The notes under the pieces: model-generated | What the model saw: only the letters and a program-made list of their open reading frames with translations | What the model was told of the DNA's origin: nothing | Databases searched by the model: none | Translations under genes and position numbers: made by a program | In this document: positions 13,960 through 34,255 of the stretch, piece by piece | Layout: each line of letters opens with the position of its first letter | How positions within the stretch are numbered: the first letter of the stretch is position 1 | Source: Nitrosomonas sp. | GTDB lineage: Bacteria > Pseudomonadota > Gammaproteobacteria > Burkholderiales > Nitrosomonadaceae | Length of the DNA stretch: 34,255 nt | Direction: 5' to 3' | Assembly: GCA_021774265.1 (NCBI GenBank) | Contig: JAJFJG010000151.1 | Span: forward strand, 1-34,255

Positions 13960-13967
13960 TTGACCGC

Positions 13968-16807: not shown

Positions 16808-16813
16808 CAACTA

Positions 16814-18022: not shown

Positions 18023-19804
18023 ATGAGTGCTGATCAAATAACGGTGTTTCTGTTGCTGTTTTGCGTCATGGGGTTATTTGTTTGGGGACGTTGGCGGTAT
18101 GACCTGGTTGCTTTTGCAGCACTGATTGCTGCTGTTTTATTAGATCTAGTACCCGCGTCAAATGCCTTTGCAGGCTTTTCCAGTTCAGCCGTTATAACAG
18201 TAGCTGCTGTACTGATTATTAGTAAAGGTCTTAGTGCGTCCGGCGCCATTGACCGTATCACTCATATTGTCGTTCCACAAGTTAAGAGTTTGGCACTGCA
18301 AATTTCAAGCCTATCTGGCTTTGCAGCTGCATTGTCTGCGATTATGAACAATGTGGGAGCATTGGCGTTGTTGATGCCTGCAACCATTGAAGCGGCCAAG
18401 AAAGTAGGGCGCTCGCCTTCGCTATTGTTAATGCCTTTATCATTTGGCTCTATTCTTGGGGGAATGATAACGCTGATTGGTACGCCGCCCAATATCATCA
18501 TCGCCAGTTATCGTGAACAGGCACTGGGTACGCCTTATCAAATGTTTGATTTCGCGCCGGTTGGATTGGTGGTTGCGGCCACAGGTGTGCTGTTTCTGGC
18601 CCTAATTGGTTGGAAACTGATTCCAAAAGAACGCCAGACAGCATCGCCAATTGATGAATTGCTCGAAATCGATGCTTATGTAGCAGAAGTGGCAGTGCCT
18701 AAGACATCAGCCGTAATTGGGAAAAATATTATTGAGCTTGAAGATATCGCGGATAAATGTGAGTTGCGTATAGCTGGTCTGATCCGTCACAATCAGCGTA
18801 TTTTAGAGCCCGCGCGACACACACTGATCGAAGCAAAAGATATTTTGATTCTGAAAGCAGGCCCCAAAGAGTTGGATAAGTTCGTTGAAAAATTGGGGCT
18901 CATGATTAAAGGTGGCACTGAAAAATCTCGAGCATTATTCAGTTCAGATGATGTATTGTTGATCGAAACGGTTGTCTCTTCTGACAGTCGCCTGATTGGG
19001 CGTGTCATCGGTGATTTGCGATTAAAATCCCGTTATGGGCTTAATCTTTTGGGTCTATCACGCCAAGGCAAGACTATTCGTACTCGATTGCACAAAATTG
19101 TTTTCCGCTCAGGTGATGTGTTGCTTTTGCAAGCTGATGAAGATGCTGTTTCTACCAATCTACCACTCCTTGGATTGTTGCCACTAGCCGGACGCGGTCT
19201 GCAGATGGGGAAACGGGGGCATGCTTGGCTGGCAGTAGGATTCATGGCAAGCGCTGTGGTGCTGGCTGCTGTTGGTGTCATGAGTTTGACAATATCTTTG
19301 GCCCTAGCGGCACTGCTTATGGTGTTGTCGGGTATTGTGCCCCTAAGAGATCTGTATGAATCAATTGATTGGCCGGTGATTGTATTGGTCGGTGCGATGA
19401 TTCCAGTTGGCGGTGCATTAGAAACCACAGGCGCAACTGTTCTGATTGCAGATAGCATTTTGCAACTGGCCGATGGCTGGTCACCCGTCGTGGTACTTGC
19501 AGCTTTGCTAATTGTTACCATGACATTGTCAGACGTCATGAACAATACCGCGACAGCTGTCGTCATGGCACCTGTTAGCATCAGTATGTCTACGCAACTG
19601 GGGGTCAATCCTGATCCTTTCCTGATGGCGGTTGCCGTCGGCGCAAGCTGCGCTTTTCTCACCCCGATAGGGCACAAGAACAATGCACTAATTATGGGGC
19701 CTGGCGGCTATGCCTTTGGTGACTATTGGCGCATGGGTTTGCCACTTGAAGTGATCGTTGTACTGGTTGCGGTTCCGATGATTCTTATCGTTTGGCCGTT
19801 GTAA
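18023..19804 (+). CDS. SLC13/DASS-type anion permease with two RCK_C domains
   Basis: This 593-residue inner-membrane transporter has an N-terminal membrane half (about 1-200), two cytosolic RCK_C/TrkA-C domains (about 217-289 and 311-385) and a C-terminal membrane half (about 400-593). The two half-transporters carry matching signatures: NNVGALALLMP with GTPPNI in the first, NNTATAVVMAP with TPIGHKNNALI in the second. Relatives transport sulfate, dicarboxylates or other anions with sodium; the substrate cannot be read from sequence. The RCK_C insertion suggests allosteric control by a small ligand. It is 165 bases from the broken AstE-like gene and probably has its own promoter. Confidence 0.9.
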   Translation: MSADQITVFLLLFCVMGLFVWGRWRYDLVAFAALIAAVLLDLVPASNAFAGFSSSAVITVAAVLIISKGLSASGAIDRITHIVVPQVKSLALQISSLSGFAAALSAIMNNVGALALLMPATIEAAKKVGRSPSLLLMPLSFGSILGGMITLIGTPPNIIIASYREQALGTPYQMFDFAPVGLVVAATGVLFLALIGWKLIPKERQTASPIDELLEIDAYVAEVAVPKTSAVIGKNIIELEDIADKCELRIAGLIRHNQRILEPARHTLIEAKDILILKAGPKELDKFVEKLGLMIKGGTEKSRALFSSDDVLLIETVVSSDSRLIGRVIGDLRLKSRYGLNLLGLSRQGKTIRTRLHKIVFRSGDVLLLQADEDAVSTNLPLLGLLPLAGRGLQMGKRGHAWLAVGFMASAVVLAAVGVMSLTISLALAALLMVLSGIVPLRDLYESIDWPVIVLVGAMIPVGGALETTGATVLIADSILQLADGWSPVVVLAALLIVTMTLSDVMNNTATAVVMAPVSISMSTQLGVNPDPFLMAVAVGASCAFLTPIGHKNNALIMGPGGYAFGDYWRMGLPLEVIVVLVAVPMILIVWPL

Positions 19805-19869
19805 GTGAACATGCCTTAATATGCGCTCAACTTCCTACTAGTACAGAACACGCTTGAGATTAAAAAACC

Positions 19870-19885
19870 GCTACCTGTAGCTTTT
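19870..19885 (+). terminator. Small hairpin with T-run after the permease gene
   Basis: GCTAC-CT-GTAGC (19870-19881) is followed by TTTT (19882-19885) and preceded by an A-rich run, which allows a bidirectional signal. With a realistic loop only four base pairs remain, so termination would be weak. It lies 65 bases after the permease stop and before mgtE. Confidence 0.3.
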
Positions 19886-19963
19886 AACCAATTCATCATG
19901 CTTCGAAGATAAAGTAATCTGATGTGTGTATGCATTTAATCAATTAGCAGGAATACAGAAAAA

Positions 19964-21328
19964 ATGACTGAACCGAAAAGCATACCTAATGAAACGTTAA
20001 AACTTTCGTTGGATCAGGTTTTTAGCCTTTTAGAACAACGTAGTTATGAGCAGTTACAGCTTTTGTTTAGTCAAGCGCATCCGGGGCAGTTGGCAGATAT
20101 TCTGGAGGCTATGCCACCCAAGGAACGTAAACAGATATGGGATCTGATGCCGGAATTACAGGAGGCTGAGACACTAACGCTCCTGAATGATGAAGTTCGT
20201 AACAGCCTGATCGTTGAGATGCAAACTGAAGATCTGGTTGCTGCTGTCGAGCAGATGGATTCCAATGACTTGGCGGATATGATTGAGGAGTTACCCGAGC
20301 ATGTCAGGCAATCCATTGAAGAAAACTTGTCTGCTGAAATTCGAGAACATCTTGAAACTAATCTATCTTTTGAAGAAGGCACTGCCGGTCGTTTGATGAG
20401 CCAGGACGTCATTACTGTTAGAAACGATGTGACACTTGCAGTGGTGTTGCGTTATTTACAATTACATGAAGACTTGCCAGAATATACCGAAGGTTTGATG
20501 GTCATTGATCGAGATGGCTTTTATCAAGGTAAGTTGTTGTTAAACAAGGTTTTAACTCATGATGAGGATACGCTAGTTAAAGATGTCATGAATATCCAGC
20601 ATGAACCCATTTTGGCAACCACTAGCGAACATGAAATCGCTCATTTCTTTGAACAATATCATTTTGTCTCCGCGCCTGTGGTTGATGAGAACAATCGTTT
20701 ACTGGGGCGGATAACAATGGACGATGTTATTTTTATACTACGTGCCGAATCGGATCGTGCGCTGATGGGCAGGGACGGTTTGGATGAAGAAGTAGATTTA
20801 TTTGCGCCTGTTATTAGCAGTACAAAACGTCGCACCGTGTGGCTGGCCATTAACTTGGCCACGGCTTTTTTGGCGGCCTGGGTCATCGGTATTTATGCCG
20901 ATACATTGGATAAAATTGTTGCCCTGGCTGTGCTTATGCCGGTTGTTGCTAGTATGGGAGGGATTGCCGGTAGCCAAACATTGACACTAACGATAAGAGG
21001 GTTGGCTCTAGCTCAAATTACCACAGGCAATAGTGTCTGGTTAGCACGTAAAGAAATTCTGATTGGCATCCTAAATGGTTTACTGTGGGCAGTAGTGGTG
21101 GCATTTATTGCCTGGTTGTGGTTCCAGGACACCGGTATCAGCCTAGTTATTGCCGCCGCCATTTTTATTAACCTGATTGCAGCGGCGGCGTCTGGTGTCG
21201 TTATTCCACTGATTTTACAGCGCCTAAACATAGACCCGGCATTATCTGGTGCAGTTGTCTTGACAACCGTTACTGATGTAATTGGGTTTATGAGTTTTCT
21301 GGGCCTGGCTACATATTTTTTATTATGA
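19964..21328 (+). CDS. mgtE: MgtE magnesium channel
   Basis: This 454-residue protein has the full MgtE architecture. A cytosolic superhelical N domain (about 10-135) contains the repeated motifs LADILEAMPPKER and LADMIEELPEHVR. A tandem CBS pair (about 140-265) follows, then five membrane helices (about 290-454) with the pore segment around PVVASMGGIAGSQTLTLTIRG. MgtE is a gated Mg2+ channel closed by Mg2+ binding to the N and CBS domains. The size matches well-studied homologs (about 450). The 159-base upstream gap holds no recognisable Mg2+ riboswitch. The gene is convergent with glsA, 46 bases apart. Confidence 0.96.
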   Translation: MTEPKSIPNETLKLSLDQVFSLLEQRSYEQLQLLFSQAHPGQLADILEAMPPKERKQIWDLMPELQEAETLTLLNDEVRNSLIVEMQTEDLVAAVEQMDSNDLADMIEELPEHVRQSIEENLSAEIREHLETNLSFEEGTAGRLMSQDVITVRNDVTLAVVLRYLQLHEDLPEYTEGLMVIDRDGFYQGKLLLNKVLTHDEDTLVKDVMNIQHEPILATTSEHEIAHFFEQYHFVSAPVVDENNRLLGRITMDDVIFILRAESDRALMGRDGLDEEVDLFAPVISSTKRRTVWLAINLATAFLAAWVIGIYADTLDKIVALAVLMPVVASMGGIAGSQTLTLTIRGLALAQITTGNSVWLARKEILIGILNGLLWAVVVAFIAWLWFQDTGISLVIAAAIFINLIAAAASGVVIPLILQRLNIDPALSGAVVLTTVTDVIGFMSFLGLATYFLL

Positions 21329-21374
21329 ACGTGAGTATAAGCACACGCAATTTAAAACAGTTAGGAGATTTTGA

Positions 21375-22307
21375 CTAAAATATGGATGATCTGGTTTTGG
21401 TTGTAAAAGATTCAAGAACTTTCATTCCTTTATAAGAGTTTCCTTTTTTATTTAATTTTGGACTCCAAACCGCTATACTGTAATTCCCAGGATAAATGGC
21501 TATAATGCCACCGCCGACTCCGCTTTTTCCAGGCAGCCCAACTTTGAAGGAAAACTCGCCTGCTTCATCGTAAAAGCCACACATTAGCATTATTGCATTG
21601 ATACGCTTTGATCTGCGTGAACTAACAATTCGTTGATTAGTGACTGGATTGATGCCATCTGAGGCAAGAAACAAAAATTCATGAGCCAACTCTTGACAAG
21701 ACATTTCAATCGAACAAAGATTAAAATAAAAATCTAGAACTATATTAATGTCATTGTTTATATTTCCGTACGATCTCATTAGATTAATAAGGGAGGCATT
21801 TCTAAAGCCGGCCAATTTTTCTGATTCAGCAATCTTGGAATTATAATTAAGGTTTGGGTTTTCTGAAATGTTTCTGGTGAATTCCAGAAAATCGTATTTT
21901 GGTTTTTTCAGATGGCTAATTAAAATGTCGCAAATGACTAGAGCACCTGCGTTTATGAGAGGGTTACGAGGAATACCATTTTCATATTCTAATTGAACTA
22001 ATGAGTTAAAAGCTGTTCCCGAGGGCTCTACGCCAACTCTATTCCATAAATTGTCGCCCTCTAGCTCAATGGCTAGCGCCAGCGCTAAAACTTTTGAGAT
22101 GCTTTGAATAGAAAATTTCTCGGTGGAGTCGCCGAAGCTAAAATTCTGATTATCAATAGTCGTCAGATGAACACCTAACTTGTTAGGGTCGATATGATGT
22201 AACTCAGGTATGTAAGAAGCAACATTGCCGATATCATCAATCTTCTGACATTCAACAGTTATGCTGGAAAGTAGTTTTTGATAACCTATAAATTTTTCTG
22301 CCTTCAT
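21375..22307 (-). CDS. glsA: Glutaminase
   Basis: This 310-residue cytosolic serine-dependent beta-lactamase-fold enzyme hydrolyses glutamine to glutamate and ammonia. The Ser-x-x-Lys motif appears in FSIQSISKVLAL (S69, K72), followed by NPLINAGAL, a VSSRRSKRINA segment and the C-terminal LPGKSGVGGGI, all typical of GlsA/GLS. Length matches E. coli GlsA (about 310). It is divergent from the zinc-peptidase gene across a 314-base gap and convergent with mgtE. In this neighbourhood it stands opposite a glutamine synthetase 4 kb away, so both directions of the glutamine cycle are present. Confidence 0.95.
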   Translation of the reverse strand: MKAEKFIGYQKLLSSITVECQKIDDIGNVASYIPELHHIDPNKLGVHLTTIDNQNFSFGDSTEKFSIQSISKVLALALAIELEGDNLWNRVGVEPSGTAFNSLVQLEYENGIPRNPLINAGALVICDILISHLKKPKYDFLEFTRNISENPNLNYNSKIAESEKLAGFRNASLINLMRSYGNINNDINIVLDFYFNLCSIEMSCQELAHEFLFLASDGINPVTNQRIVSSRRSKRINAIMLMCGFYDEAGEFSFKVGLPGKSGVGGGIIAIYPGNYSIAVWSPKLNKKGNSYKGMKVLESFTTKTRSSIF

Positions 22308-22621
22308 TTTGGCGTGCGTATCATGCGTTCTTTATTTTTGTGTATGCCTTGCATAGGTGTGGGCGATTGATGTGAAAGTCCTCTGTAGCAAGATTGTTAT
22401 CCATAATGGTTTCTATCGTCATTAGATGTTAACTACAAGATAATGGCAAGCGATATCCTCGCCAAGCCTAAGTATATGTGTTTGTAATGAATATATTATA
22501 TTTGTGGCTTATAAGGTTTATAGCCATATTTTAATTATTTTTTTTGAAAAGTGTAAAGAAAAAACCTAATTGCTGAGTATATACTGCATCTAATTGTATC
22601 GATCAATCAAAGGATAATGTA
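22308..22621. other. Divergent intergenic region with two hairpins and a T-run
   Basis: No protein gene is visible. The promoters of glsA (leftward) and the zinc peptidase (rightward) should lie here. A stem GCGA-TATCC-TCGC, extended by GGC/GCC after an internal loop, lies at about 22444-22467. A stronger hairpin is at 22505-22526 with an AT-rich T-run at 22538-22545. See the separate ncRNA candidate. Confidence 0.45.
22440..22545 (+). ncRNA. Possible small RNA or leader ending in a terminator-like hairpin
   Basis: The second hairpin pairs TGGCT-ATAA with TTAT-AGCCA (one bulged T, loop GGT; 22505-22526). It is followed 11 bases later by eight consecutive Ts. The first hairpin lies some 40 bases upstream. 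The order resembles a short transcript ending in an intrinsic terminator just upstream of the zinc-peptidase gene, but the gap between stem and T-run is long and no promoter is evident. This is a weak candidate. Confidence 0.25.
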
Positions 22622-23767
22622 TTGAAAACCTTTCAGTGTCATTGTGGAAATAGCTTGCATTTTGAGAATAGTCAATGTTTTTCGTGTGATCGGATGGTTG
22701 CTTATTTACCTGATGAAAAACAGTTAAGTGCACTAGAGCCAATTGTGAGTGGCAACTGGACGGCTTTATTAAATAATCAGCAATATCGTCAATGTAAAAA
22801 TTTTTCTGATTTTAATGTTTGTAATTGGATGTTGGCTGCGAGTGATGATGAAGTGCTGTGTGTTTCTTGCAGCTTGAACCAAACTATTCCGAATCTTGAT
22901 GAAGCGAAGAATCTTACATTATGGTATCGCATCGAGTCAGCTAAACGTCGATTGCTGTATACGTTGTATAGTTTGAGTTTACCGGTAGTCGGTCGGCAAC
23001 AGGATTCTTGTCGTGGGATGGGTTTTGCGTTTCTACAAGACGAAGTAACGCAGGATGAGTTTAATAATGAGTTATATATTAAGCAAAGCGTAGCAACCGG
23101 GCATAATTCAGGCATGATTACTATTAACCTGCTTGAAGCCGAGCACGCGTCACGGCTGGAAATGCGGGATAAAATGAATGAACGCTACCGTACATTATTG
23201 GGTCACTTTAGGCATGAATCAGGACACTATTATTGGGATTGCCTGATTAATGATACAGACAGAATCACAGGTTTCCGAGAGCTATTTGGCGATGAGCGGC
23301 TAGACTACCAGCAATCATTAAAAACCTACTACGATCAAGGGCCGCCAAAACGCTGGCAAGACACATGGATTAGCGCCTATGCCAGCATGCATGCTTGGGA
23401 AGACTGGGCGGAAACTTGGGCACATTACTTACATATGGTTGATACTGTCGAAACAGCGCATGATTTTAGTTTTAGGATTCATGGTCATATTGTTTCAGAG
23501 CCCGCGCTTGAGCCTGACCCGACAAACATGCCGTTGACAAGTGGTTATGTAACGCCGATTTTATTTGAAGAGTTATTCGATGATTGGTGTCGATTGTCTG
23601 TTGCATTAAACTCGCTTAATCGTAGCATGGGTATGGACGATGCTTACCCATTTGTGATTTCCGATGTCGCATTAAAAAAACTCCGATATATACACAATAT
23701 TATTTCTGAAGTTAGTGTTCAATCACAGGTTACTTGTTTTCCCATTCAAAACGTGGCAAGCGACTAA
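22622..23767 (+). CDS. Zinc-ribbon plus putative zinc-binding metallopeptidase (DUF2248/Peptidase_Mx-like)
   Basis: This 381-residue protein has an N-terminal zinc ribbon (CHC near residue 6 and CFSC near 20, with further cysteines at C67 and C80-x-x-C83) followed by a predicted gluzincin-like domain. The HExxH motif is RHESGH with H198, E199 and H202, and the downstream helix AWEDWAETWAHYLH offers a third acidic ligand. It starts at TTG 22622, with AAAGGA eight bases before. Members of this family are often found beside Anbu, transglutaminase-like and ATP-grasp/alpha-E genes; that is the case here. Its last 38 bases overlap the convergent Anbu gene. Substrate unknown; a role in trimming the peptide product of the neighbouring ligases is inferred. 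Confidence 0.85.
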   Translation: MKTFQCHCGNSLHFENSQCFSCDRMVAYLPDEKQLSALEPIVSGNWTALLNNQQYRQCKNFSDFNVCNWMLAASDDEVLCVSCSLNQTIPNLDEAKNLTLWYRIESAKRRLLYTLYSLSLPVVGRQQDSCRGMGFAFLQDEVTQDEFNNELYIKQSVATGHNSGMITINLLEAEHASRLEMRDKMNERYRTLLGHFRHESGHYYWDCLINDTDRITGFRELFGDERLDYQQSLKTYYDQGPPKRWQDTWISAYASMHAWEDWAETWAHYLHMVDTVETAHDFSFRIHGHIVSEPALEPDPTNMPLTSGYVTPILFEELFDDWCRLSVALNSLNRSMGMDDAYPFVISDVALKKLRYIHNIISEVSVQSQVTCFPIQNVASD

Positions 23768-24470
23768 AAGCGCGACTCAGGCCCTCATTCCATTGTTTTT
23801 GCATCGATTTGTACATCGGTGAATTGAGCGACAGCGTTAGATGATAAGGTTCTCTAATAGCATCGTTGGTGTGCATCGCCAGTTCTACTGGTGGACCTAC
23901 AGAGATATTGCTGCGAATGGTTGACTCCAGGGATACCAGCGCACAACGTGCGGCATCTTCAAGCGAAGTAGTTGGCGTAATGATTCGATCCAAAATAGGC
24001 TTGCCATATTTATTTTCACCAATCTGCAAAAAAGGTGTTTCAGGAGAAGCGCTGATATAATTTCCTTGCGGATAGATTAAATAGATTTCTGGTTGTTGTC
24101 CTGCAATTTGTCCACCTAGAATGAAACTCGCTGTGGCACCGCCACTATCGCTTTTTTCCAAAGCATCAGCATGTTGACGTTGTTCCTTTTGGCTGAGTTG
24201 GCCTATGTAATGTGCCACTTCATGTAGATATTTTCCTTTACGCAGACTCATTTTAGCTATTGATTCTGCAAGGTCGCTCCTGATGTTATTCACCACGGCT
24301 TGCGATGTTGCAAGATTACCGGCTGTTAATAAAACACAAATACGTTCATCAGGCCAGACAAAGGTGCTCATTTTGCTATAAGTTGTTACATAATCAACAC
24401 CTGCGTTAGTCCTCGAGTCAGAGGCGAAGACGATACCTTTATTAACGCTGATAGCGACGCAATAAGTCAT
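23730..24470 (-). CDS. Anbu proteasome-like peptidase
   Basis: This 246-residue protein belongs to the Anbu family of bacterial proteasome beta-subunit relatives. After removal of the initiator Met, Thr1 becomes the nucleophile (TYCVAI). Asp17 falls in FASDSRTNAGVD exactly where proteasome subunits have it, and a lysine at about 32-33 (SKM) follows. Anbu assembles into an open helical ring and its substrate is unknown. It almost always travels with a transglutaminase-like gene and the ATP-grasp/alpha-E pair, all present here. The gene is 134 bases downstream of the transglutaminase-like gene on the same strand and overlaps the convergent zinc-peptidase gene by 38 bases. Confidence 0.95.
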   Translation of the reverse strand: MTYCVAISVNKGIVFASDSRTNAGVDYVTTYSKMSTFVWPDERICVLLTAGNLATSQAVVNNIRSDLAESIAKMSLRKGKYLHEVAHYIGQLSQKEQRQHADALEKSDSGGATASFILGGQIAGQQPEIYLIYPQGNYISASPETPFLQIGENKYGKPILDRIITPTTSLEDAARCALVSLESTIRSNISVGPPVELAMHTNDAIREPYHLTLSLNSPMYKSMQKQWNEGLSRAFSRLPRFEWENK

Positions 24471-24604
24471 TTTTTATATATAAATAAGTTGCTGTTAAAA
24501 GAAAATATTAAAAGTATTTCACGATCAAATTTTACTCTGTTTCATGTTAAATATTTAGAATTATTTAGTACCAAAAGAAAAATTAAACTAGATGTTATTC
24601 CTTA

Positions 24605-25435
24605 TTATCGATCTTTTTGTTCGATTATTTTTACTTCTGTTTCTAATCTTGAACCAACGTTGCCTCGGTAGGAGCCATAGACAGGTAAAGTCTTCTTAGG
24701 GTCTTTGCTTGCGGAAACGGGTATATAGGCTTCATTGGTAAAAATTCCGGCACTTGGGTCTACACCAATCCATCCAGCTCCCGGCGCCATAAACTCAACC
24801 CAAGCATGTAGTTCATGACCCTCTCCCAATTCCGGATTAAAGGCGTATCCACTGACAAAACGTGCGGGTATTCCAAGGTACCTAAGCATGATAATCATCA
24901 TCCATGACAAGTCTCGACACGAGCCACTTTTTCTTTTAAAACAGTCGGAAGGCTCATGTATGTTTTCAGCATATCTGACGGTATGATCCCAATGTTTGTT
25001 GACCAATTGAAGAATTTCATTGACTGGTGTTAACAATTCGTTAGCAGGTAGGGATGTATAGGGCTGTAACATTGCTTGCATTTCTGTAGAAATCTCTTGA
25101 TGAATAGTCAAGTAACCAAAGTGTTCTTGGCTATTCATTTCCAGTACATCCATGTCTATGAAAAAACCAAAGGGGTTAAATTCAGTAGAATGTACTTTAA
25201 TGGTTGCATTAATTTCGAGGCGCTTTACTGTTTTGTCGAACCAGCATTGGTATTGTAATGAATTTTCAATATTCAGTAAGGGAAATAATCCGTTTGGTGC
25301 AGGATCTACCTTGATATCGAAAGTTTCAACTTGCAAGTATGAACGCTGTTGAGGGTGAAAATTAAGGTAGTGGGGCTCAAGAAAAACGAAATCGTCATAG
25401 AGGTATCGCGTTATGTGGTGTATTTGCAATCTCAT
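24605..25435 (-). CDS. Transglutaminase-like cysteine protease (Anbu-associated)
   Basis: This 276-residue protein has a beta-rich N-terminal domain (about 1-90, starting MRLQIHHITRY, the bacterial transglutaminase N-region) and a papain-like core. The catalytic triad is visible: C173 in SGSCRDLS, H210 in ELHAWVEF, D226 in GVDPSAG. No signal peptide, so probably cytosolic. Such COG1305 proteins may hydrolyse or form amide bonds at glutamine/glutamate side chains. It is the first gene of the leftward pair with Anbu and is divergent from the glutamine synthetase gene, 672 bases away. It probably acts on the same peptide substrate as the ATP-grasp/alpha-E proteins. Confidence 0.9.
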   Translation of the reverse strand: MRLQIHHITRYLYDDFVFLEPHYLNFHPQQRSYLQVETFDIKVDPAPNGLFPLLNIENSLQYQCWFDKTVKRLEINATIKVHSTEFNPFGFFIDMDVLEMNSQEHFGYLTIHQEISTEMQAMLQPYTSLPANELLTPVNEILQLVNKHWDHTVRYAENIHEPSDCFKRKSGSCRDLSWMMIIMLRYLGIPARFVSGYAFNPELGEGHELHAWVEFMAPGAGWIGVDPSAGIFTNEAYIPVSASKDPKKTLPVYGSYRGNVGSRLETEVKIIEQKDR

Positions 25436-26107
25436 TAGTAAACCTTATTCAGAATTTGTGGGGATTACGTGAATTTTGTTTTAAGGCCTCTGTTAGTTTT
25501 GAATCCTCAAACTTGAAAAAAGGCGAGAGAACCTAAAATAAAGTTGATCCAGTACTAGTTTAAATCGTAAGTCTCAGTATTTCTTGCTGCTGTGATTGAC
25601 AATGAAGTCTACATTGTTAGTAGAACTTATTGTTAATTAAGTATAAACATGTAATTTCAGGTGAACTATGAGTGTGTTTGACAGCCAATGCCACTTCCAG
25701 TATTTTATATGAAAGGACGTTAATTTTTCTTACTATCTAATGTCTCTTTGTATTTTCAAGCTTAAAAATTGCCAAATACTTTTTTCACCATTTGACCTGT
25801 TGCTGCTTTACTGCTGGTTGTTTCGGTAAAACGAAGTTTTTCCTCACAAAATTAATAATTCAATAGAATAGCTGCATGGAGGTTGTCTTACCTAATAAAA
25901 GATAGCCGATCTTAGAAATTGTCTGCTATCTTCGTGTGTGCATGTAAATCGGGAATAACGTAATAAATTGATATAAAATAGTTTTGTTTGCAATAAAATG
26001 GGATGAAAGATCTGATCTATTAGTCGTTAAATCAGCGTAAAACATGCGCTCACAAGACCAGCATAGCTTATCTTTTCTATTTTTCTTATTAATATCAAAA
26101 ATACACT
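25436..26107. other. 672-bp AT-rich divergent region upstream of the transglutaminase-like and GS genes
   Basis: No convincing gene was found; the longest suggestive frame is a 14-codon ATG frame near 25668. An 8-bp perfect inverted repeat AAGATAGC/GCTATCTT lies at 25899-25932, about 175 bases before the glutamine synthetase. I saw no sigma-54 GG-N10-GC type site that stands out. The size is large for two divergent promoters and could hide a regulatory RNA. Confidence 0.4.
25899..25932. promoter_or_regulatory. 8-bp perfect inverted repeat upstream of the GS gene
   Basis: AAGATAGC (25899-25906) and GCTATCTT (25925-25932) are exact inverse complements separated by 18 bases. This could be a hairpin in a long leader or a dyad operator. 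It is 175 bases upstream of the GS start codon. Confidence 0.35.
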
Positions 26108-27121
26108 ATGAGTAAATCGAAATTAGAATACATTTGGTTAGATGGCTATGAGCCAACCGCTAACTTAAGAAGTAAAACAAAAGTCGTGGATAATTTCAGT
26201 GGCAAATTGGAAGATTGTCAAATCTGGTCTTTTGATGGCAGTTCCACTAAACAGGCAGTTTCAGGTTCTTCAGATTGTTTGCTAAAACCTATTGCTATTT
26301 TCCCGGATCCTGATAGAACTAACGGTTACTTGATCATGACTGAAGTATTAAACGCTGACGGAACGCCACACGAATCTAACTCTAGGGCAAGAATTGATGA
26401 AGATGCTGATGATGATTTCTGGTTTGGTTTTGAGCAAGAATATTTCATTATGGATAAACATACGCAGCTGCCTTTAGGGTTTCCCGTTGGTGGCTATCCT
26501 GGACCACAAGGCATGTATTACTGCTCTGTTGGTGGAAAGAACACACACGGCAGAAATTTTGTAGAAGAGCATGCGGATTTGTGTATTAATGCCGGACTTA
26601 ATTTCGAGGGTATTAACCAAGAAGTGGCCAGTGGACAATGGGAATATCAACTATTTGCCCAAGGCGCTAGAAAAGCAGGCGATGAGATTTGGGTCGCCCG
26701 ATATTTGATGGATCGATTAACAGAAAAGTATGGCTTCTATATTGAATATCACCCAAAACCCGTCAAAGGGGATTGGAATGGTTCGGGCATGCATGCCAAT
26801 TTTTCAAATACCGTACTAAGAACTTGTGGCTCTCAAGAGATTTATGAAAAAATCTGTGAAGCATTTAGACCGGTTACCGAGGAACACTTAGCTGTTTACG
26901 GAGAATTTAATGAGCAACGCTTAACGGGTAAGCATGAAACCGCATCTATACATGACTTTAGTTTTGTTGTTTCTGATAGGAGGGCATCTATTAGAATACC
27001 TATTATTACCGTACAGAACGGTTGGAAAGGTTGGTTAGAAGACAGAAGGCCTGCTTCCAACGGTGACCCATACAAAATAGCGGCTAGGATCATTAAAACA
27101 ATTAAATCCGTCAAACTGTAA
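26108..27121 (+). CDS. Class II (eukaryotic-type) glutamine synthetase
   Basis: This 337-residue protein matches the short GSII form (about 340-370 residues) and not the 470-residue GlnA of enteric bacteria. Visible motifs are the beta-grasp element WSFDGSSTKQA, the metal/glutamate site FGFEQEYF, the nucleotide region PGPQGMYYCSVGG, the catalytic NQEVASGQWEYQ, the ATP segment WNGSGMHANFS and the C-terminal RLTGKHETASIHDFS with RRASIRIP. All key blocks are present, so activity as a glutamate-ammonia ligase or a related amide-forming ligase is likely. It lacks the adenylylation loop of class I enzymes. It lies between the Anbu/transglutaminase pair and the ATP-grasp/alpha-E pair, which suggests it supplies glutamine or performs amide formation for that system. 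Confidence 0.93.
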   Translation: MSKSKLEYIWLDGYEPTANLRSKTKVVDNFSGKLEDCQIWSFDGSSTKQAVSGSSDCLLKPIAIFPDPDRTNGYLIMTEVLNADGTPHESNSRARIDEDADDDFWFGFEQEYFIMDKHTQLPLGFPVGGYPGPQGMYYCSVGGKNTHGRNFVEEHADLCINAGLNFEGINQEVASGQWEYQLFAQGARKAGDEIWVARYLMDRLTEKYGFYIEYHPKPVKGDWNGSGMHANFSNTVLRTCGSQEIYEKICEAFRPVTEEHLAVYGEFNEQRLTGKHETASIHDFSFVVSDRRASIRIPIITVQNGWKGWLEDRRPASNGDPYKIAARIIKTIKSVKL

Positions 27122-27178
27122 CGACAATATACTTTTCATGTCCAAAAGTAACCCGTTTAGAGTGCTTATTCATGGTGT

Positions 27179-27240
27179 ATGGCTAGACAGCAAAGCTGTC
27201 ACAATAGTCTGCCTATTGAGGGGTTAGGCAATAAAGCCAT
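27179..27240 (+). promoter_or_regulatory. Compact three-branched RNA fold upstream of the ATP-grasp gene
   Basis: ATGGCT (27179-27184) pairs with AGCCAT (27235-27240), closing two hairpins: GACAGC-AAA-GCTGTC (27186-27200) and TGCCTA with a 9-base loop and TAGGCA (27210-27230). All three stems are perfect 6-bp helices. It lies 97-158 bases before the ATP-grasp start and could be a leader element or part of an RNA between the GS and ATP-grasp genes. No known riboswitch consensus was recognised. The possibility that it is a chance fold or a dispersed palindromic repeat remains. Confidence 0.45.
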
Positions 27241-27336
27241 GCGCTATTATTAGTGAGGTATGAAGAGTATAGAATAATAAGGAAGCCCAAGACTCACAGT
27301 TTATCGATGTGATAATAATTAACTTACGAGAACATA

Positions 27337-28791
27337 ATGACTATTCGTTGGGGAAGCTATAAAGTAAAAAGCCTTTATGATGAAATGTTGCGTGCCAGCG
27401 GACGTCCACGTCCAGCTGCTTTGGCTTTGTCCAATTATTTGCGCTCATTGAAAGATAGCGAGATTGAGGAATATAAAATTGGCGCCGAATCTGCTATACA
27501 TGTGATGGGTGTTACTTTTACTGTGTACACCGAAGAAGAAGGTTCCATTGATCGTGCTTGGCCGTTTGACATTATTCCTCGCATCATTGATAAAAGAGAA
27601 TGGCAACATGTCGAAGCAGGTCTTAAGCAACGTGTACAGGCTTTGAATCTTTTTATTGATGACTTGTATCATAAGCAGCGCATCGTTAAAGATAAAATTT
27701 TCCCTGCCGAGTTACTGGAAGATTCAAAAAATTTTCGTCCAGAGTGTGTTGGTGCCAACCCGCCATTAGGAATCTGGGCGCATATTTGTGGCTCTGACCT
27801 AGTGCGTGATAAAGACGGTACATTTTATGTGCTCGAAGACAATCTGCGGGTGCCTTCCGGTGTTTCCTATATGCTGGAAAATCGTCAGGTAATGAAACGG
27901 CTGTTTCCCGAAATGTTTGAACAATACAATATTTTGCCAGTCGATGATTATCCCTCGCAGTTGTATGATACGTTGGCGGCTTTGTCTCCGCGCCCGGGAG
28001 ACCAGCCTGAAATCGTTGTTTTGACACCTGGCATTTATAATTCTGCTTATTTTGAGCATGCTTATTTGGCGCAACAAATGGGTGCGGAACTGGTTGAAGG
28101 TGGTGACCTGACCGTCGATAAGAACGACGTAGTGTACATGCGCACTATTGAAGGACTGACACGTGTTGATGTTATCTATCGTCGAGTCGATGATTTATTC
28201 CTCGATCCAGAAGTGTTTAATCCCGAGTCGGCGCTTGGCGCACCTGGGTTAATGCGCGCCTGGAAAGCGGGTAACGTTGCACTGGCCAATGCGCCGGGGG
28301 CGGGTGTCGCAGATGACAAAGTAGTCTATGCTTTTGTACCCGACATGATTAAATATTACCTTGATCAGGATGCTATTTTGCCTAATGTACCGACCTATAA
28401 ATGCGTAAACAAACAAGAGCGCCAATATGTTGTTGAACATATCCATGAAATGGTCGTCAAACCGGCCAACGAGTCAGGCGGCTATGGCATGCTCATCGGG
28501 CCGCAGGCAAGCAAGAAAGAGTGCGAAAAATTTGTGCGCCTAATCCGTCGTGATCCGCGTAATTATGTTGCTCAACCTATGTTGACGCTTTCTACCGCAC
28601 CGACTTTGGTGGGTAATCGTGTGGAGCCGCGTCACCTGGATTTACGTCCTTTTATCCTGAGTGGAGAACAAACTGTTGTGACCACTGGTGGTTTAACCCG
28701 CGTGGCTTTGCGCAAGGGTTCAACTGTGGTGAATTCCTCTCAAGGTGGCGGTAGTAAAGATACTTGGGTTGTTGACATGGAGGCGATATGA
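27337..28791 (+). CDS. Circularly permuted ATP-grasp ligase (COG2308)
   Basis: This 484-residue protein is a member of the circularly permuted ATP-grasp type 2 family. Evidence: the N-terminal YDEMLRASGRPRP, RAWPFDIIPRII, FIDDLYH, the segment DGTFYVLEDNLRVPSGVSYM, and the later VVKPANESGGYGM and RHLDLRPFILSGE blocks, all in the usual order and length. Family members are predicted amidoligases that join amino acids with ATP hydrolysis; the true substrates are unknown. The next gene (alpha-E) overlaps it by four bases (ATGA), the standard pairing. A weak ribosome site (GAGAA) precedes the ATG. A 215-base gap, which holds a three-branched fold, separates it from GS. Confidence 0.93.
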   Translation: MTIRWGSYKVKSLYDEMLRASGRPRPAALALSNYLRSLKDSEIEEYKIGAESAIHVMGVTFTVYTEEEGSIDRAWPFDIIPRIIDKREWQHVEAGLKQRVQALNLFIDDLYHKQRIVKDKIFPAELLEDSKNFRPECVGANPPLGIWAHICGSDLVRDKDGTFYVLEDNLRVPSGVSYMLENRQVMKRLFPEMFEQYNILPVDDYPSQLYDTLAALSPRPGDQPEIVVLTPGIYNSAYFEHAYLAQQMGAELVEGGDLTVDKNDVVYMRTIEGLTRVDVIYRRVDDLFLDPEVFNPESALGAPGLMRAWKAGNVALANAPGAGVADDKVVYAFVPDMIKYYLDQDAILPNVPTYKCVNKQERQYVVEHIHEMVVKPANESGGYGMLIGPQASKKECEKFVRLIRRDPRNYVAQPMLTLSTAPTLVGNRVEPRHLDLRPFILSGEQTVVTTGGLTRVALRKGSTVVNSSQGGGSKDTWVVDMEAI

Positions 28792-29714
28792 GCATGCTTT
28801 CCCGCGTTGCTAACAAAATTAATTGGATGGCGCGTTACCTGGAGCGGACTGAGAACACGGCACGTATCATCAACGTCAATACACACTTGTTACTTGATTT
28901 GCCAAAACGAGTGCGGTTGGGTTGGGAGCCGATTGTAGATATCACTAGCCAACGGGATCATTTTTATAGCTTGTATGAAGAAGCCGATGAGCACAGTGTG
29001 GTGCGTTTCATGGTCACTGACATGCGTAACCCTGATTCCATGCTAAGTACGCTAAATATGGCTCGTGAGAATACGCGTACCATTCGAGATATTATTCCGC
29101 GCGAGGTATGGGAACAAGTCAATACCCTGTATTTGAACTCAAAGGCCAATGCAAGAAGCGTAACAACGCAGCGGCATCGCTACGATTACTTACGCTCAAT
29201 CATTGCTGGTGTTCAAACCGTTAGCGGTATGCTGGCAGGTACTATGACCCATGATGAAGGGTATGATTTTTTGCGTCTCGGACGTAACCTGGAGCGTGCT
29301 GATATGACGACGCGAATTATTGACGTGCGTTCCGCTTCATTGCTGCCGGATATGTCAGAAGATCTGTCGCCATTTGAAAACTTACAATGGGTGAGCGTGC
29401 TCAAATCACTCACGGCTTACCAGATGTACCGCCGTCAAATGCGACAACGTATTCGGCGGCCGGATGTGCTCAAGTTTTTGTTGCAGGAAGAACATTTTCC
29501 ACGTTCGTTCTATCATGCTTTATGTCAGGCAAGCAATTGTTTAAATAATTTGCCGCGAAGTGAAAAGACGTTAAAGCTACTCGCTAAGCTACAAAAAAAA
29601 CTACTGGATGCCAAGCTAGAAGAGTTTGATCAGGGAAAGCTGCACAAATTTATTGATGAGCTTCAGCTTGGGATTATAAAAATAAACGATACTATCGATG
29701 AAACTTATTTCTAA
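28788..29714 (+). CDS. Alpha-E domain protein (DUF403, COG2307)
   Basis: This 308-residue, mostly helical protein is the obligate companion of the circularly permuted ATP-grasp ligase. The family start MLSRVANKINWMARYLERTENTARI is complete, with RNLERADMTTRIIDVR near residue 165. The domain is rich in conserved glutamates and is predicted to bind the peptide or tRNA-like substrate of the ligase; no activity is proven. A GGAGG ribosome site precedes the ATG, which overlaps the ligase stop by four bases. Translational coupling suggests fixed stoichiometry. The end of the gene is 158 bases from the convergent DUF3617 gene. Confidence 0.92.
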   Translation: MSMLSRVANKINWMARYLERTENTARIINVNTHLLLDLPKRVRLGWEPIVDITSQRDHFYSLYEEADEHSVVRFMVTDMRNPDSMLSTLNMARENTRTIRDIIPREVWEQVNTLYLNSKANARSVTTQRHRYDYLRSIIAGVQTVSGMLAGTMTHDEGYDFLRLGRNLERADMTTRIIDVRSASLLPDMSEDLSPFENLQWVSVLKSLTAYQMYRRQMRQRIRRPDVLKFLLQEEHFPRSFYHALCQASNCLNNLPRSEKTLKLLAKLQKKLLDAKLEEFDQGKLHKFIDELQLGIIKINDTIDETYF

Positions 29715-29754
29715 TAACCGTCTTATTTTGTGGGTTCATAAAAAAATCGGTTAT
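29714..29754. repeat. 7-bp inverted repeat after the alpha-E gene
   Basis: ATAACCG (29714-29720) and CGGTTAT (29748-29754) are perfect inverse complements with a 27-base AT-rich spacer. The stem sits immediately after the stop codon, but no T-run follows, so any terminator function is uncertain. Confidence 0.3.
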
Positions 29755-29872
29755 GACGCCAGGAAACTTGATTGATGAAGATATTCTGGGAAATACTGGA
29801 ACCTTCCTTTGCAAGACGCGTCCCTATAAATGACATGCAAGGCTGTTGAGCTGAGATATCACGTTTGTAAGC

Positions 29873-30382
29873 CTATTGCGACATTGTGCAAGTTTCTTCA
29901 ATCCAGCGACCGCTAGTTTCAACTGTTGCAAAGACCGGCATGCCTTGTACAACACTATCAAATTCAGTTTGTCCAGTGAAATGCTCAGGGTTTGAGAAAT
30001 AACCTTCAGCGACTCCAATCCCCTGAAATTGAGTATTGGTACACGAAAGATCCGCTTTGTAGCGGTTTCCTGTCTTGATGGCATTTTTGACGCTGCAACC
30101 TGATTGGCTTTCGTAAAAATGTGTGGGAACTTCCTGGTCAGCCATCTGTTGGGTAATACATACATTTGAGATGATGGCATCATTTCTAATTTGTGGCATT
30201 TGCAGACCATACTGCTCGACCAGACTGGTTATTTGTTGCATTTGTTGTGATGGAATATGCGGTACCATTGCCAGTAAATTCGATGTTGTGGTGATCTTCC
30301 ATAATCCAGGCCGAATGGTACTTGTCGCCAGACTTGTTGTTGATATCATTAACAGTGATACGAGAATTAGAGTCTTATACAT
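29873..30382 (-). CDS. DUF3617-family periplasmic protein
   Basis: This 169-residue protein has a signal peptide (cut near SLA-TS, about residue 20) and the DUF3617 hallmark RPGLWKITTTS right after it. Four cysteines (C75, C95, C113, C166) could form two disulfides in the periplasm. The start ATG has GGAG five bases upstream. DUF3617 proteins are common in proteobacteria and their function is unknown. It is on the same strand as the FGase-GGT operon, 53 bases downstream of it, but it looks functionally unrelated. Confidence 0.85.
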   Translation of the reverse strand: MYKTLILVSLLMISTTSLATSTIRPGLWKITTTSNLLAMVPHIPSQQMQQITSLVEQYGLQMPQIRNDAIISNVCITQQMADQEVPTHFYESQSGCSVKNAIKTGNRYKADLSCTNTQFQGIGVAEGYFSNPEHFTGQTEFDSVVQGMPVFATVETSGRWIEETCTMSQ

Positions 30383-30435
30383 AGCATCTCCAGAATACTT
30401 GTTGTTCTCATAAGTTTTAAAAAAACTATCTGCGC

Positions 30436-31209
30436 CTACATTTTATACTCGAAAAAAAGTATCAAGGCTTTTTTAAATTGTTCTCGGAGTTCATTTAATC
30501 GCGTTTTTTGCATACTTAATTGGCATTTATCAAACCATGGCTCGGCCAAATATAAATTTCTGCTCATTTCAATTTGTATCCAAGGAGTTGATTGGTTACC
30601 GTAAGTTCTCGTTATGAACCCACCAGAAAAAGGCATATCGATTGTAATTTCTGAGGGATCTAGTTCAAAAGCAATTTGGAAACATCTGGCGAGTTTTTTT
30701 GCTGTTTCTGGTGAACAACTTTGTCCTCGATTGGTGCCGAGACAGATAGAGGGTCTTTTTTGTCCCCGATCAGGAGAAATTTCTGGGCCGATGGCTTCCA
30801 TGCTGTGGCAATCTAGCGCAAGCTGAATTTCTGGTTGTGTTGCCAGTATCTGCCGAATTTTATGATGATAGGGGTGGTAATATTTATTAAGTAGTAGGGT
30901 TATGTTTTTTGAAGACAACTCATTGCCTGGGATATAAATGACTTTTCCATGGCAAGTTGCTGTTTTAACTACGCCATCAGGGTTCGTGGGTGGGAGATCG
31001 TTCGTGTCTCGATTGAGATCAATAAAGGCTCTGGCGCAGAACGTATCAACAAAGGCCGCAACGGATTCCGATATTCCATAAATTTCACGTGTAAAAGCAT
31101 CACTGTCAGCTAACAAGTCTTTTGAGGACAAGCAAACTTGTTCACTAATTTCATCCGGCGTTTTATCGCCGCCATGTGGAACGGAAATCAACACAGGCAG
31201 TTTTGTCAT
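30436..31209 (-). CDS. N-formylglutamate amidohydrolase family protein
   Basis: This 257-residue protein has the family signature (FGase, HutG type): the opening LISVPHGG near residue 7, DLNRD near 66, and the metal-binding LDCHSM near 132, with a C-terminal QIEMSRNLY block. Relatives release glutamate from N-formylglutamate in histidine breakdown, and others act on N-acyl amino acids. No other hut genes are visible nearby. The start codon overlaps the GGT stop by four bases (ATGA), so the protein is translated together with GGT. That context favours an N-substituted glutamate or glutamyl peptide as substrate over formylglutamate from histidine. Confidence 0.9.
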   Translation of the reverse strand: MTKLPVLISVPHGGDKTPDEISEQVCLSSKDLLADSDAFTREIYGISESVAAFVDTFCARAFIDLNRDTNDLPPTNPDGVVKTATCHGKVIYIPGNELSSKNITLLLNKYYHPYHHKIRQILATQPEIQLALDCHSMEAIGPEISPDRGQKRPSICLGTNRGQSCSPETAKKLARCFQIAFELDPSEITIDMPFSGGFITRTYGNQSTPWIQIEMSRNLYLAEPWFDKCQLSMQKTRLNELREQFKKALILFFEYKM

Positions 31210-32834
31210 TGCGGCCCTGCCGCCGTACCGTCCCTACGTTTCTCGGCCACACCTTGGAAATCACCAGTTGTTTGACACCTTAAAACAGCATGAATCGCAC
31301 CCAGATAAAAAGAATAGGGTTCTTTTCGGGCTATTTTATAACCGGCTTTCTCAAGGTAGGAAACTACCTCAGGGTCAAAACGGTCAGCTTCAAGGCTTAG
31401 GGTTCCGCCGATAGAACAATGTAGTCGAGGACGAAGCATGGCTTGATCTATAGGAAGATCGGCATCAATGATATGCGAAAGGAATTGGCTGATGGCTGAA
31501 AAAATCCGTTCACTACCAGGGCTTCCAACAATTAGCCAAGGTTTATCTTTGTGAAAAACAAGTGCCGGCGATACCGAACTCCAAGGAATGGCGTTGGGGC
31601 GAAGATAATAAGGGTGAGAAGGGTCTTTGGTTTCTAATGCACTCATGTAATTGTTGTAGAGAAAACCTAGTCCACGAGCTGCGGATCTGGATCCATACAC
31701 ACGCTCAATTGATTGGGTTATACCCACGGCATTGCCATCCTTGTCCATTACAGAAAGGTGTGTGGTGTCACTTTCTGCCGGATAGGGATCCACCATGGGA
31801 AGCGTAGGGTCGATTTGATCGCGGATAGATGAAGAAAGTGCCTTGGTATATTCTCTACTCAGAATTTTTTTCTCATCGAGTGTTTGCGGGTAGGTATTGG
31901 GATCAAAAGGCCGCTCTTTTCTGTTGATCAATGCTTTCCTGAAAGTCTCGGCCAAGAAATGAAAAGATTCAGGTGTGGCTTGCTTGAGAAACTTGGAAGG
32001 GAGATTATTTAACATTAACAATACTAATAGCAATGTTCTTCCTGAAGTTGGTGGTGGACAAGTAAGTATCCGTGTATTGCGATACTTTCTTTTCAATGGT
32101 TTGCGTTCAACTGGCCAAGGGATAAACGCAAGGTCATCCGCACGTAAAAATCCATCATGATCACGCATATCTTCATCAATTTTTTTTGCGATTTCTCCTA
32201 GATAAAATGGGTGAACACCTTCATTCGCAATACAATCAAGCAGGTTTGCCAAGTCATCTTGCTGAAATAAGTCACCTACATCATAAGGCTGACCATTCTT
32301 GAGAAAATAATCCGCGCCAGATTTTGACTCAACACTATGAAACGCTTCCATCTCGCGTTTCTGAAGTGTATGTTGGAGCGGAGTAATGCTGTAGCCTATT
32401 CTTGCGATACGGATAGCGGGTTCAAGAATGGTATTCCATCCCAATTTTCCGTAACGGAAGTGTAAATGACCGAGCACAGCCGGAGTACTAGGAACCGTTG
32501 TGGCTCGATATCCAGTAAAACGTTCTAGTTTCTCAATACTGTCCATGTGCGTCAAGGAGGGCACTCGGCTTGAACCATCGATAGCAATTGTTTTGCCATT
32601 TATGTGCATGAGTGCCATGGATTGACCGCCGATACCACTGGCTTGTGGTTCACATACACACAATGCAAAGGCTGCTGCGCAGGCGGCATCAACGGCGTTG
32701 CCTCCTAATTCCAGCATTTCTACACCCGCATTAGTCGCTTCTGGAAATGCGGTGGATACCATGCCACGCTTTGAAACAGCACATTTTTTATCTTCATCAA
32801 CTTGAAAATTCTTTTCGACGGTATTGATGTTCAT
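31206..32834 (-). CDS. Gamma-glutamyltransferase-family enzyme without a signal peptide
   Basis: This 542-residue Ntn-hydrolase carries the family blocks GGNAVDAACAAAFALCV and the autocleavage site SDTTHLSVMDKDGNAVGIT with the nucleophile T358. YGSRSAARGLGFLYNN follows. Autoprocessing would give a large subunit (1-357) and a small subunit (358-542). Classical bacterial GGT is periplasmic, but this protein starts MNINTVEKNFQVDED with no signal sequence, so it should be cytosolic. That would place gamma-glutamyl transfer or hydrolysis beside the ATP-grasp ligases. The start overlaps the upstream M20-fusion stop by four bases (ATGA) and the stop overlaps FGase by four, a fully coupled trio. Confidence 0.9.
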   Translation of the reverse strand: MNINTVEKNFQVDEDKKCAVSKRGMVSTAFPEATNAGVEMLELGGNAVDAACAAAFALCVCEPQASGIGGQSMALMHINGKTIAIDGSSRVPSLTHMDSIEKLERFTGYRATTVPSTPAVLGHLHFRYGKLGWNTILEPAIRIARIGYSITPLQHTLQKREMEAFHSVESKSGADYFLKNGQPYDVGDLFQQDDLANLLDCIANEGVHPFYLGEIAKKIDEDMRDHDGFLRADDLAFIPWPVERKPLKRKYRNTRILTCPPPTSGRTLLLVLLMLNNLPSKFLKQATPESFHFLAETFRKALINRKERPFDPNTYPQTLDEKKILSREYTKALSSSIRDQIDPTLPMVDPYPAESDTTHLSVMDKDGNAVGITQSIERVYGSRSAARGLGFLYNNYMSALETKDPSHPYYLRPNAIPWSSVSPALVFHKDKPWLIVGSPGSERIFSAISQFLSHIIDADLPIDQAMLRPRLHCSIGGTLSLEADRFDPEVVSYLEKAGYKIARKEPYSFYLGAIHAVLRCQTTGDFQGVAEKRRDGTAAGPQ

Positions 32835-34255
32835 GATTTAAAGTTGGTTGATGCTTTGTATATAGTGAGAGCCAATAAAACAGCTCGGTCAATCAGGCTA
32901 TCCCGAACCACGTATTCATTTTTACTACCGGGATTGCCAGTGACAGGGCCAAATCCATCGAGGGAAGGAATTTCGTCAGGAACATGACTGAGCGATGTGC
33001 CGATATCGCCATGAGCTTTTTTAGTGCGAACTTCCACGATTTTAGCCAATTGCTCAATTTTTTTATAAAAAGATAGATCTCCTTCAGATTCTAACAGTGG
33101 TCGGCGTTGATGACCGCGTGTGATATGTACATGGAGAGGCCATTTGGGGTCGGCATTAAATAGTCGGTAGACCTCTTTTTGCAAGTTTTCTTTCTGCTGG
33201 GGTTCTGGGTAATGAATACGAAACGAAAGAGACACATGGTCGGGTGCAGTGTCCTCGCCACCTTTGGTTTTGAGTTTAGTAATAATGACTGAAACCCCCG
33301 TTTCTTTTACAGCTAATTTCTGAAGTTTTGGGATTTTGTCACTAACATAAAGTAACGGATCAGTTTGTTTGCCTGTTAGATTCGCACTGGCTTTTTCCAA
33401 AGAGCGGTTAATCTCAATGCTATAACGTAGGATTCCTGAACAGGAGGTAATAATTTCACCAGCCAATCCGGCGCCGCCTAAGCCAATGACATAAGAGGAT
33501 TTCCGAGAAAGTTCGTCAATCAGTGGTCTGGAAGAGCGCCCACTCAGTGACTCGTCGGAGATCAGAAGGATACCGCAATTAACTTTTTTTAAGTTTCGTG
33601 TGTAGTGAAGAGCACGCAAGGCACTAAGCAGCGTAGCCAAGCCACCCTTTCCTCTAGAAACACCCGAGCCGTATATTCGACCGCGTTGCTCAAGGAATGG
33701 TGAGTAATCTGAGAAAGGGATGGCATTGTCTAGATTGCCCAGTATTAGAATATCGTTATGATCTTTAACATGATTGCTGAAATATAGGTTATTAGCAAAT
33801 TCTGCACGCGGGTAAACTTGCCGTTGAAACTTCAAATTCTGGATTTGGTTAGCAATCCAACGGCCGAATGAATTGACGCCTTCGATATTATGGACGTAAG
33901 AGTTAATACGAACCATTTTGGCAAGGTCTTCTTCCATAGTGACCAAATTGCCGCGCAGGTAGCTTCTTAGTCGTACATTGATAGGTGGTGTATTGTTTTT
34001 GGTAGGGCTTTGAAAGAGTAGATCCTTATCGGTCGACACTTGATCCATTTGTTGATCGCCAAAATACCGTTCGACCGCAACATCCAGCATACGATTAACC
34101 AGGGATTCATAAGTATATCCAGCAGCTTTGGCTGCCGCAACGTAAGTTCCAGTAAGCCCCAGGCTGGCCATTGAATTTAATTCCAAAACATAGAGATTAT
34201 TATTTTCATCCATGCGGAAATCGATTCGGCAAAAATCATAAATGCCAAGAACGCG
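32831..34255 (-). CDS. ATP-grasp (D-Ala-D-Ala ligase-like) C-terminus fused to a degenerate M20 peptidase-like domain; 5' end outside the window
   Basis: The frame stays open to the window edge (34255) and reads RVLGIYDFCRIDFR before the first internal Met (34213), so the gene starts beyond the window. The first 40 or so residues match the C-terminal end of an ATP-grasp of the D-Ala-D-Ala ligase type: DFCRIDFR-MDEN followed by the metal-binding VLELNSMASLG. From about residue 85 (numbered from that Met) an M20/carboxypeptidase G2-like domain follows: GNLDNAIPF (about 159-167), GSGVSRGKGG (182-191), SDES (219-222) and a C-terminal LDGFGPVTGNPGSKNEYV. The usual metal ligands are replaced (H to N160, D to R187, second E to S222, last H to G). 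GGT follows with an ATGA overlap. Confidence 0.82.
   Translation of the reverse strand, partial: RVLGIYDFCRIDFRMDENNNLYVLELNSMASLGLTGTYVAAAKAAGYTYESLVNRMLDVAVERYFGDQQMDQVSTDKDLLFQSPTKNNTPPINVRLRSYLRGNLVTMEEDLAKMVRINSYVHNIEGVNSFGRWIANQIQNLKFQRQVYPRAEFANNLYFSNHVKDHNDILILGNLDNAIPFSDYSPFLEQRGRIYGSGVSRGKGGLATLLSALRALHYTRNLKKVNCGILLISDESLSGRSSRPLIDELSRKSSYVIGLGGAGLAGEIITSCSGILRYSIEINRSLEKASANLTGKQTDPLLYVSDKIPKLQKLAVKETGVSVIITKLKTKGGEDTAPDHVSLSFRIHYPEPQQKENLQKEVYRLFNADPKWPLHVHITRGHQRRPLLESEGDLSFYKKIEQLAKIVEVRTKKAHGDIGTSLSHVPDEIPSLDGFGPVTGNPGSKNEYVVRDSLIDRAVLLALTIYKASTNFKS

Follow-up and report, generated by a model that had tools for sequence, protein, structure and literature searches.

The window analysed here, a stretch of 34,255 nucleotides, is a complete contig (JAJFJG010000151.1, C59 in our numbering) of a Nitrosomonas sp. 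genome (GCA_021774265.1, here G000; a 3.4-Mb assembly in 220 contigs). Its last part carries the genes of the Anbu system (unit A) and, beside them, an operon encoding an ATP-grasp/M20 fusion, a GGT-like protein and an FGase-family protein (unit B). We are highly confident that A and B are two independently inherited units that lie side by side. The preliminary description of this DNA had named ten genes here and read them as one glutamyl or peptide-amide locus. All ten have Pfam support in the places it gave them; Pfam assigns the Anbu protein to the proteasome family PF00227, and its relatives identify it as Anbu.

Neighbouring genes were counted around the best 80 of 156 Anbu relatives from a genome-wide scan, with at most 10 kb read on each side and some loci cut by contig ends. 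Homologues were counted first with single-sequence searches and then with profiles; the counts reported are those from the profiles, except for the fusion, which was counted with single-sequence searches. The features are as follows, with the number of the 80 Anbu loci at which each gene was found.

21331..29885, no strand: 8.55-kb block of glutaminase, Mx, Anbu, transglutaminase-like protein, GSII, circularly permuted (CP) ATP-grasp and alpha-E, delimited by blastn and gene order; missing in the congener G443
21375..22307, minus strand: glutaminase (Pfam/NCBIfam); a sporadic neighbour, 1/80
22622..23767, plus strand: Peptidase_Mx (Mx), a zinc-ribbon metallopeptidase (Pfam); 57/80
23730..24470, minus strand: Anbu (Pfam PF00227), with Thr1, Asp17 and Lys32 present
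24605..25435, minus strand: transglutaminase-like protein (Pfam); 15/80
26108..27121, plus strand: GSII-type glutamine synthetase (Pfam; NCBIfam GlnII score of 371 bits, under the cut-off of 500); 2/80
27337..28791, plus strand: CP-ATP-grasp of the Anbu core (Pfam); 69/80
28788..29714, plus strand: alpha-E of the Anbu core (Pfam); 68/80
29873..30382, minus strand: DUF3617 protein, which adjoins the second operon in G000, G442 and G443
30436..31209, minus strand: FGase-family hydrolase (Pfam; below the HutG cut-off); 1/80
31206..32834, minus strand: GGT-like Ntn hydrolase (Pfam), catalytic Thr kept; 1/80
32831..34255, minus strand: fusion of a Ddl-like ATP-grasp and a degenerate M20 domain (Pfam), C-terminal 474 aa, cut by the contig end; 1/80
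Contig C179, L024:19013-19936: 5' part of the fusion gene, first 308 residues

Four-base ATGA overlaps are present at three junctions (FGase/GGT, GGT/fusion and CP-ATP-grasp/alpha-E), in agreement with the earlier proposal that the fusion, GGT and FGase genes form a translationally coupled operon. Of the ATP-grasp domain, no more than roughly 60 C-terminal residues are encoded by the part of the fusion gene in the window. Contig C179 and the window share exactly 141 identical bases at their ends, which looks like an assembly overlap, and the complete gene is present in one frame in eleven congeners (732-765 aa). Directly upstream of the fusion gene on C179 is a gene for an ankyrin-repeat protein (Ank_2, five stretches; L024:17544-18827), and in the window itself, at 15764-17428, a RimK ATP-grasp gene is followed by a deacylase gene of the AstE/AspA family, a further pair of the amidoligase type.

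The neighbour count, which had been suggested as a check of the idea that the two operons are one linked module, went against it. GGT, FGase and the fusion were found together at a single Anbu locus, that of Nitrosomonas sp. OFTM190 (L028), which also has the glutaminase and is a near twin of the window; the window's Anbu is 95% identical to that of OFTM190 and 82-85% identical to those of other Nitrosomonas records. In N. supralitoralis (L030), too, GSII lies beside the core. At one, one, two and one of the 80 loci, respectively, GGT, FGase, GSII and glutaminase are not regular members of the Anbu operon, and the glutaminase and GSII, formerly counted as parts of the locus, are sporadic neighbours.

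Across 85 Nitrosomonas genomes, the fusion was found in 13, Anbu in 15 and both in 10; five Anbu carriers are without the fusion. Anbu was not detected in three fusion carriers (G019, G443 and G014), which form one supported clade in a PrfC gene tree; its absence is not certain for each of them because these genomes are 91, 91 and 83% complete, respectively. The two units are linked in three of the ten genomes that carry both (G000, G442 and G010), and these three group together on the PrfC tree with support of 91/85. Even here the arrangement varies: in G010 the distance from alpha-E to the fusion is 3.4 kb, the gene order is different, and CP-ATP-grasp and Anbu each start a contig. Genes for CitMHS and Zn_protease lie between alpha-E and the fusion in that genome. 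In the other seven genomes (G006, G408, G416, G417, G437, G452 and G457) the units are unlinked, and in all of these except G006 they are on different contigs. In G006, a complete genome, Anbu is located at 1.88 Mb and the operon lies at 3.63 Mb, next to what appear, by eye, to be the flagellar genes fliL-fliR; no Anbu was found within the 16-20 kb read.

The congener G443 (L196), which offers the clearest test, carries unit B without the Anbu block. In blastn comparisons it matches the window at 3509-21330, with other gaps, and at 29886-34252, the main pieces being 78-87% identical, and it has 16 bases in place of window positions 21331-29885. Its gene order runs from MgtE directly to DUF3617, FGase, GGT and the fusion. 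The Anbu block is absent as one piece while the operon is kept; the block was gained or lost without the second operon. A second presence/absence stretch between the two genomes lies at 17857-19937 of the window, where the region of a CitMHS transporter gene has no blastn match in G443.

Several observations weigh against reading the two units as independent. The comparison with G443 agrees equally well with a loss of the block there and with its gain in the window, and MgtE adjoins alpha-E in other Nitrosomonas, which would fit a loss. The raw co-occurrence of Anbu and the fusion is above chance: Anbu is present in 10 of the 13 genomes with the fusion and in 5 of the 72 without it (Fisher p 2.3e-7). 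The linkage in G010, with a gene order unlike that of the window, can be read as repeated attraction. On the PrfC tree, which was calculated for 30 of the 85 genomes (the 18 that carry either unit and 12 hand-picked ones that carry neither), Anbu needs four changes and the fusion three, and the carriers sit in clades. These changes give two to four independent pairs, too few to exclude a functional tie, and such a tie may exist. For the same reason we did not accept the raw co-occurrence as evidence of function. The joint presence of the units tracks the species tree, and shared ancestry is enough to explain it.

One functional locus, in which a glutamyl peptide made or recycled by the second operon serves Anbu while GSII and glutaminase supply or remove glutamine, is to us very improbable. 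It would account for the adjoining units in G000 and G442 and the related arrangement in G010, for the raw overlap of 10 in 13, for the GSII gene beside the core in N. supralitoralis as well, and for the high Anbu expression under nitrogen starvation that is cited in the accessible portions of PMC6376114. However, the combination occurs at one of 80 Anbu loci, the units are apart in seven of ten genomes, three fusion carriers have no detected Anbu and five Anbu carriers no fusion, and the glutamyl pocket and M20 ligands are lost (see below). We rejected a single linked locus on the strength of the neighbour counts, the unlinked genomes and the comparison with G443. The genes recorded in the preliminary description are thus all present, its reading of them as one system mostly does not hold, and the combination is a neighbourhood of one lineage, in which the closeness of the units looks like an accident.

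In unit A we recognise the known Anbu system, in the usual form of its clade (Anbu, Mx, CP-ATP-grasp and alpha-E), to which a transglutaminase-like protein and, as local additions, GSII and glutaminase are joined here. The Anbu operon was reportedly described by Iyer et al. in 2009. That the core was already known, as the preliminary description had said, is borne out by the accessible parts of two papers from 2017 (PMC5666114 and PMC6376114), which place Anbu with an ATP-grasp protein, alpha-E and a transglutaminase-like protein. In the parts of PMC6376114 at hand, which are also the source of the residue names Thr1, Asp17 and Lys32/33, Anbu is described as being without peptidase activity and the ATP-grasp protein as releasing phosphate; the corresponding parts of PMC5666114 report that proteasome inhibitors bind, and argue for protein degradation and against a role in peptide synthesis. 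All four proteins of the published operon are encoded in the window, with CP-ATP-grasp followed by alpha-E and the transglutaminase-like gene nearby, and the N-terminal Thr1, Asp17 and Lys32 of Anbu are kept. The window differs from the published operon in that Mx lies tail-to-tail with Anbu, and the transglutaminase-like gene is near only 8 of the 58 close relatives of the window's Anbu.

The Mx and Anbu genes are convergent and overlap by 38 bases (22622-24470). Of the 58 loci whose Anbu is at least 64% identical to that of the window, 57 have Mx nearby, the miss (L042) being a locus that ends just after Anbu; none of the 22 loci of the more distant Anbu group has it. In the reverse direction, a search of 339 genomes gave 50 Mx copies in 48 of them, and Anbu lay within about 1.5 kb of Mx in 11 of the 30 Mx loci fetched, including the window's own. 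The word zinc does not occur in PMC6376114. Mx is a constant partner in this Anbu clade and may be its missing partner; its constancy is a testable lead and a clue to the job of Anbu.

The coupled operon of unit B encodes the fusion of a Ddl-like ATP-grasp to a putatively dead M20 domain, together with a GGT-like Ntn hydrolase; in most cases an FGase-family hydrolase completes it. The best solved relative of the ATP-grasp domain is a D-alanine-D-alanine ligase (8evx, E 4.1e-28), and the Asp/Glu/Asn metal site is kept, with D272, E281 and N283 invariant over eight aligned rows. However, the first 84 or so residues of the fusion remain unaligned, the gene also encodes an M20 domain, and the acceptor loop reads NSMASLG in place of NTLPGMT. 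The M20 domain matches residues 24-303 of carboxypeptidase G2 (CPG2; 1cg2, E 2.8e-8), whose two-metal ligand set we take to be H112, D141, E176, E200 and H385. All five positions are replaced in 12 of 12 Nitrosomonas rows, with N for H112, R, H or K for D141, S for E176, G, S or N for E200 and G for H385. Judged from these replacements, the M20 domain of the fusion is predicted to be catalytically dead, and the idea that it recycles a glutamyl product is weakened.

The GGT-like protein has a full-length match to the gamma-glutamyltranspeptidase family and keeps the catalytic threonine (TTH) and Gly483. It differs from that family at the positions of Arg114, Asn411, Gln430 and Asp433, presumably the gamma-glutamyl recognition residues of the E. 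coli enzyme, all of which are replaced in 12 of 12 rows: S or H for R114, E or Q for N411, Y for Q430, and A, S or T for D433, in addition to S for G484. These rows comprise ten Nitrosomonas sequences, G162 and Bradyrhizobium; the partial frames of G144 and G325 were left out, and so were G442, G019 and G014. No signal peptide was seen, by eye, in the N-termini of the 12 rows. In the FGase alignment of ten rows, nine of them usable after G408 was left out for a wrong start, the stretches HGGD, DLNR, DCHSM and QIE are invariant in nine of nine; a search for solved relatives of this protein gave none at E 0.001.

Some of the details count against a dead peptidase and an altered pocket. The fusion of G144 keeps the first histidine, the only ligand kept, and has Y at the position of H385; the H385 column itself was assigned by means of two rows with an intact M20 domain, in an alignment that holds no CPG2 sequence, and the roles of the ligand and GGT residues are those of CPG2 and E. 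coli GGT, mapped on sequence alignments without a structure.

The family names, and Pfam matches that span nearly the whole of GGT and FGase, would suit a canonical gamma-glutamyl pathway in which a ligase works with a true GGT and an N-formylglutamate deformylase. The replaced recognition residues speak against such a pathway, as do the family scores: the GGT-like protein, at 350.5 bits, narrowly misses the TIGR00066 GGT cut-off of 357.85 bits, and the FGase-like protein is far under the NCBIfam cut-off for HutG, the N-formylglutamate deformylase (109.3 vs 278.75 bits). We regard this pathway as quite unlikely. A GGT homologue without the canonical gamma-glutamyl-binding residues also weakens the earlier suggestion of a gamma-glutamyl product, and the name gamma-glutamyl should not be given to unit B without assays.

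Within Nitrosomonas the GGT-like gene follows the fusion in all 13 carriers, and FGase follows in 10 of the 13, the contig ending first in G019 and G014. Outside the genus, the ATP-grasp lay beside a GGT homologue in all three hit genomes when 369 genomes were searched (E 1e-60). In G162 a full-length GGT frame adjoins the ATP-grasp, and G144 likewise has its ATP-grasp fused to M20. On a Bradyrhizobium barranii plasmid, genes for an aminomutase, GGT, a 7TM protein and the ATP-grasp stand in a row. The pair is clear in two other lineages, and two more have partial GGT frames. The frame in G325 (L116:7622-9001) matches the GGT family only in part and has an FHA domain at its end, which could reflect a real fusion or a sequence error.

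The pairing has its exceptions, which weigh against this picture of unit B: in G010 the operon has no FGase beside it, the GGT frame of G144 is just 145 aa with a weak match (44 bits) and that of G325 is partial, no GGT was found beside the ATP-grasp in three of the four rhizobial plasmids opened, and a profile search found none within 1.5 kb of the related ATP-grasp in the 19 further genomes that it hit outside Nitrosomonas. Searches for more pairs in the orders of G162 and G144 returned the starting genomes only (1/11 and 1/2, respectively). In the family of G574, of the same phylum, the rhizobial-type ATP-grasp was present in 2 of 199 genomes, and in the plasmid collection close matches to the Bradyrhizobium GGT (E up to 1e-60) were found in two records, both of Bradyrhizobium barranii. 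Judged by the profile search, the ATP-grasp/GGT pair is limited to the nearest relatives. A literature search, judged by titles, found no paper on the fusion/GGT-like/FGase operon. The operon represents a new variant among ATP-grasp amidoligase operons.

Sister ATP-grasp genes hint at unusual amino acid substrates through their aminomutase neighbours. Of the 20 loci L146-L165, 15 have a lysine-2,3-aminomutase homologue next to the related ATP-grasp, as do two of the four rhizobial plasmids opened. In G000 itself, on contig C37 (L165), two Ddl-like ATP-grasp genes come after such a homologue. Among the carriers of unit B are two marine species, N. marina and N. aestuarii. These observations would agree with unit B making a beta-amino-acid dipeptide or an osmolyte, which we consider unlikely. 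None of the loci read showed the aminomutase/ATP-grasp cluster next to unit B, and the cluster occurs in only 2 of the 13 Nitrosomonas fusion carriers, G000 and G442. The cluster is not a general supplier of unit B because these two alone among the 85 genomes carry it, and an aminomutase link in Nitrosomonas is not supported.

Unit B is most simply understood as an operon for making and remodelling amides, with a ligase that would carry a non-catalytic M20 domain. We infer its catalytic steps and their cytoplasmic location as follows, and offer the mechanism tentatively. In the cytoplasm, the ATP-grasp domain would activate a carboxylate as an acyl phosphate and join it to an amine. The M20 fold, with hydrolysis presumably lost, may serve in substrate binding or positioning. 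The GGT-like enzyme would form an acyl-threonine intermediate from that amide and pass the acyl group, probably not an ordinary gamma-glutamyl, to water or another amine. The FGase-like metal hydrolase may trim or recycle the N-acyl product. Taken as a whole, two units together with a mechanism for B, we find this explanation fairly probable. That unit B is an undescribed amide pathway of the cytoplasm, in which a dead peptidase serves the ligase as substrate-binding domain and the product is handed to a GGT homologue whose pocket is re-made and non-glutamyl, is conceivable, if somewhat more doubtful than the mechanism.

The separation of the two units removes a tempting but unsupported system, Anbu joined to glutamyl metabolism. 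It leaves a testable lead in a compact operon with a seemingly dead M20 domain and a putatively re-specified GGT, whose product is open to enzymology. If the proposed pathway is true, unit B and the aminomutase-linked sister clusters would together make up a family of small-molecule amide systems.

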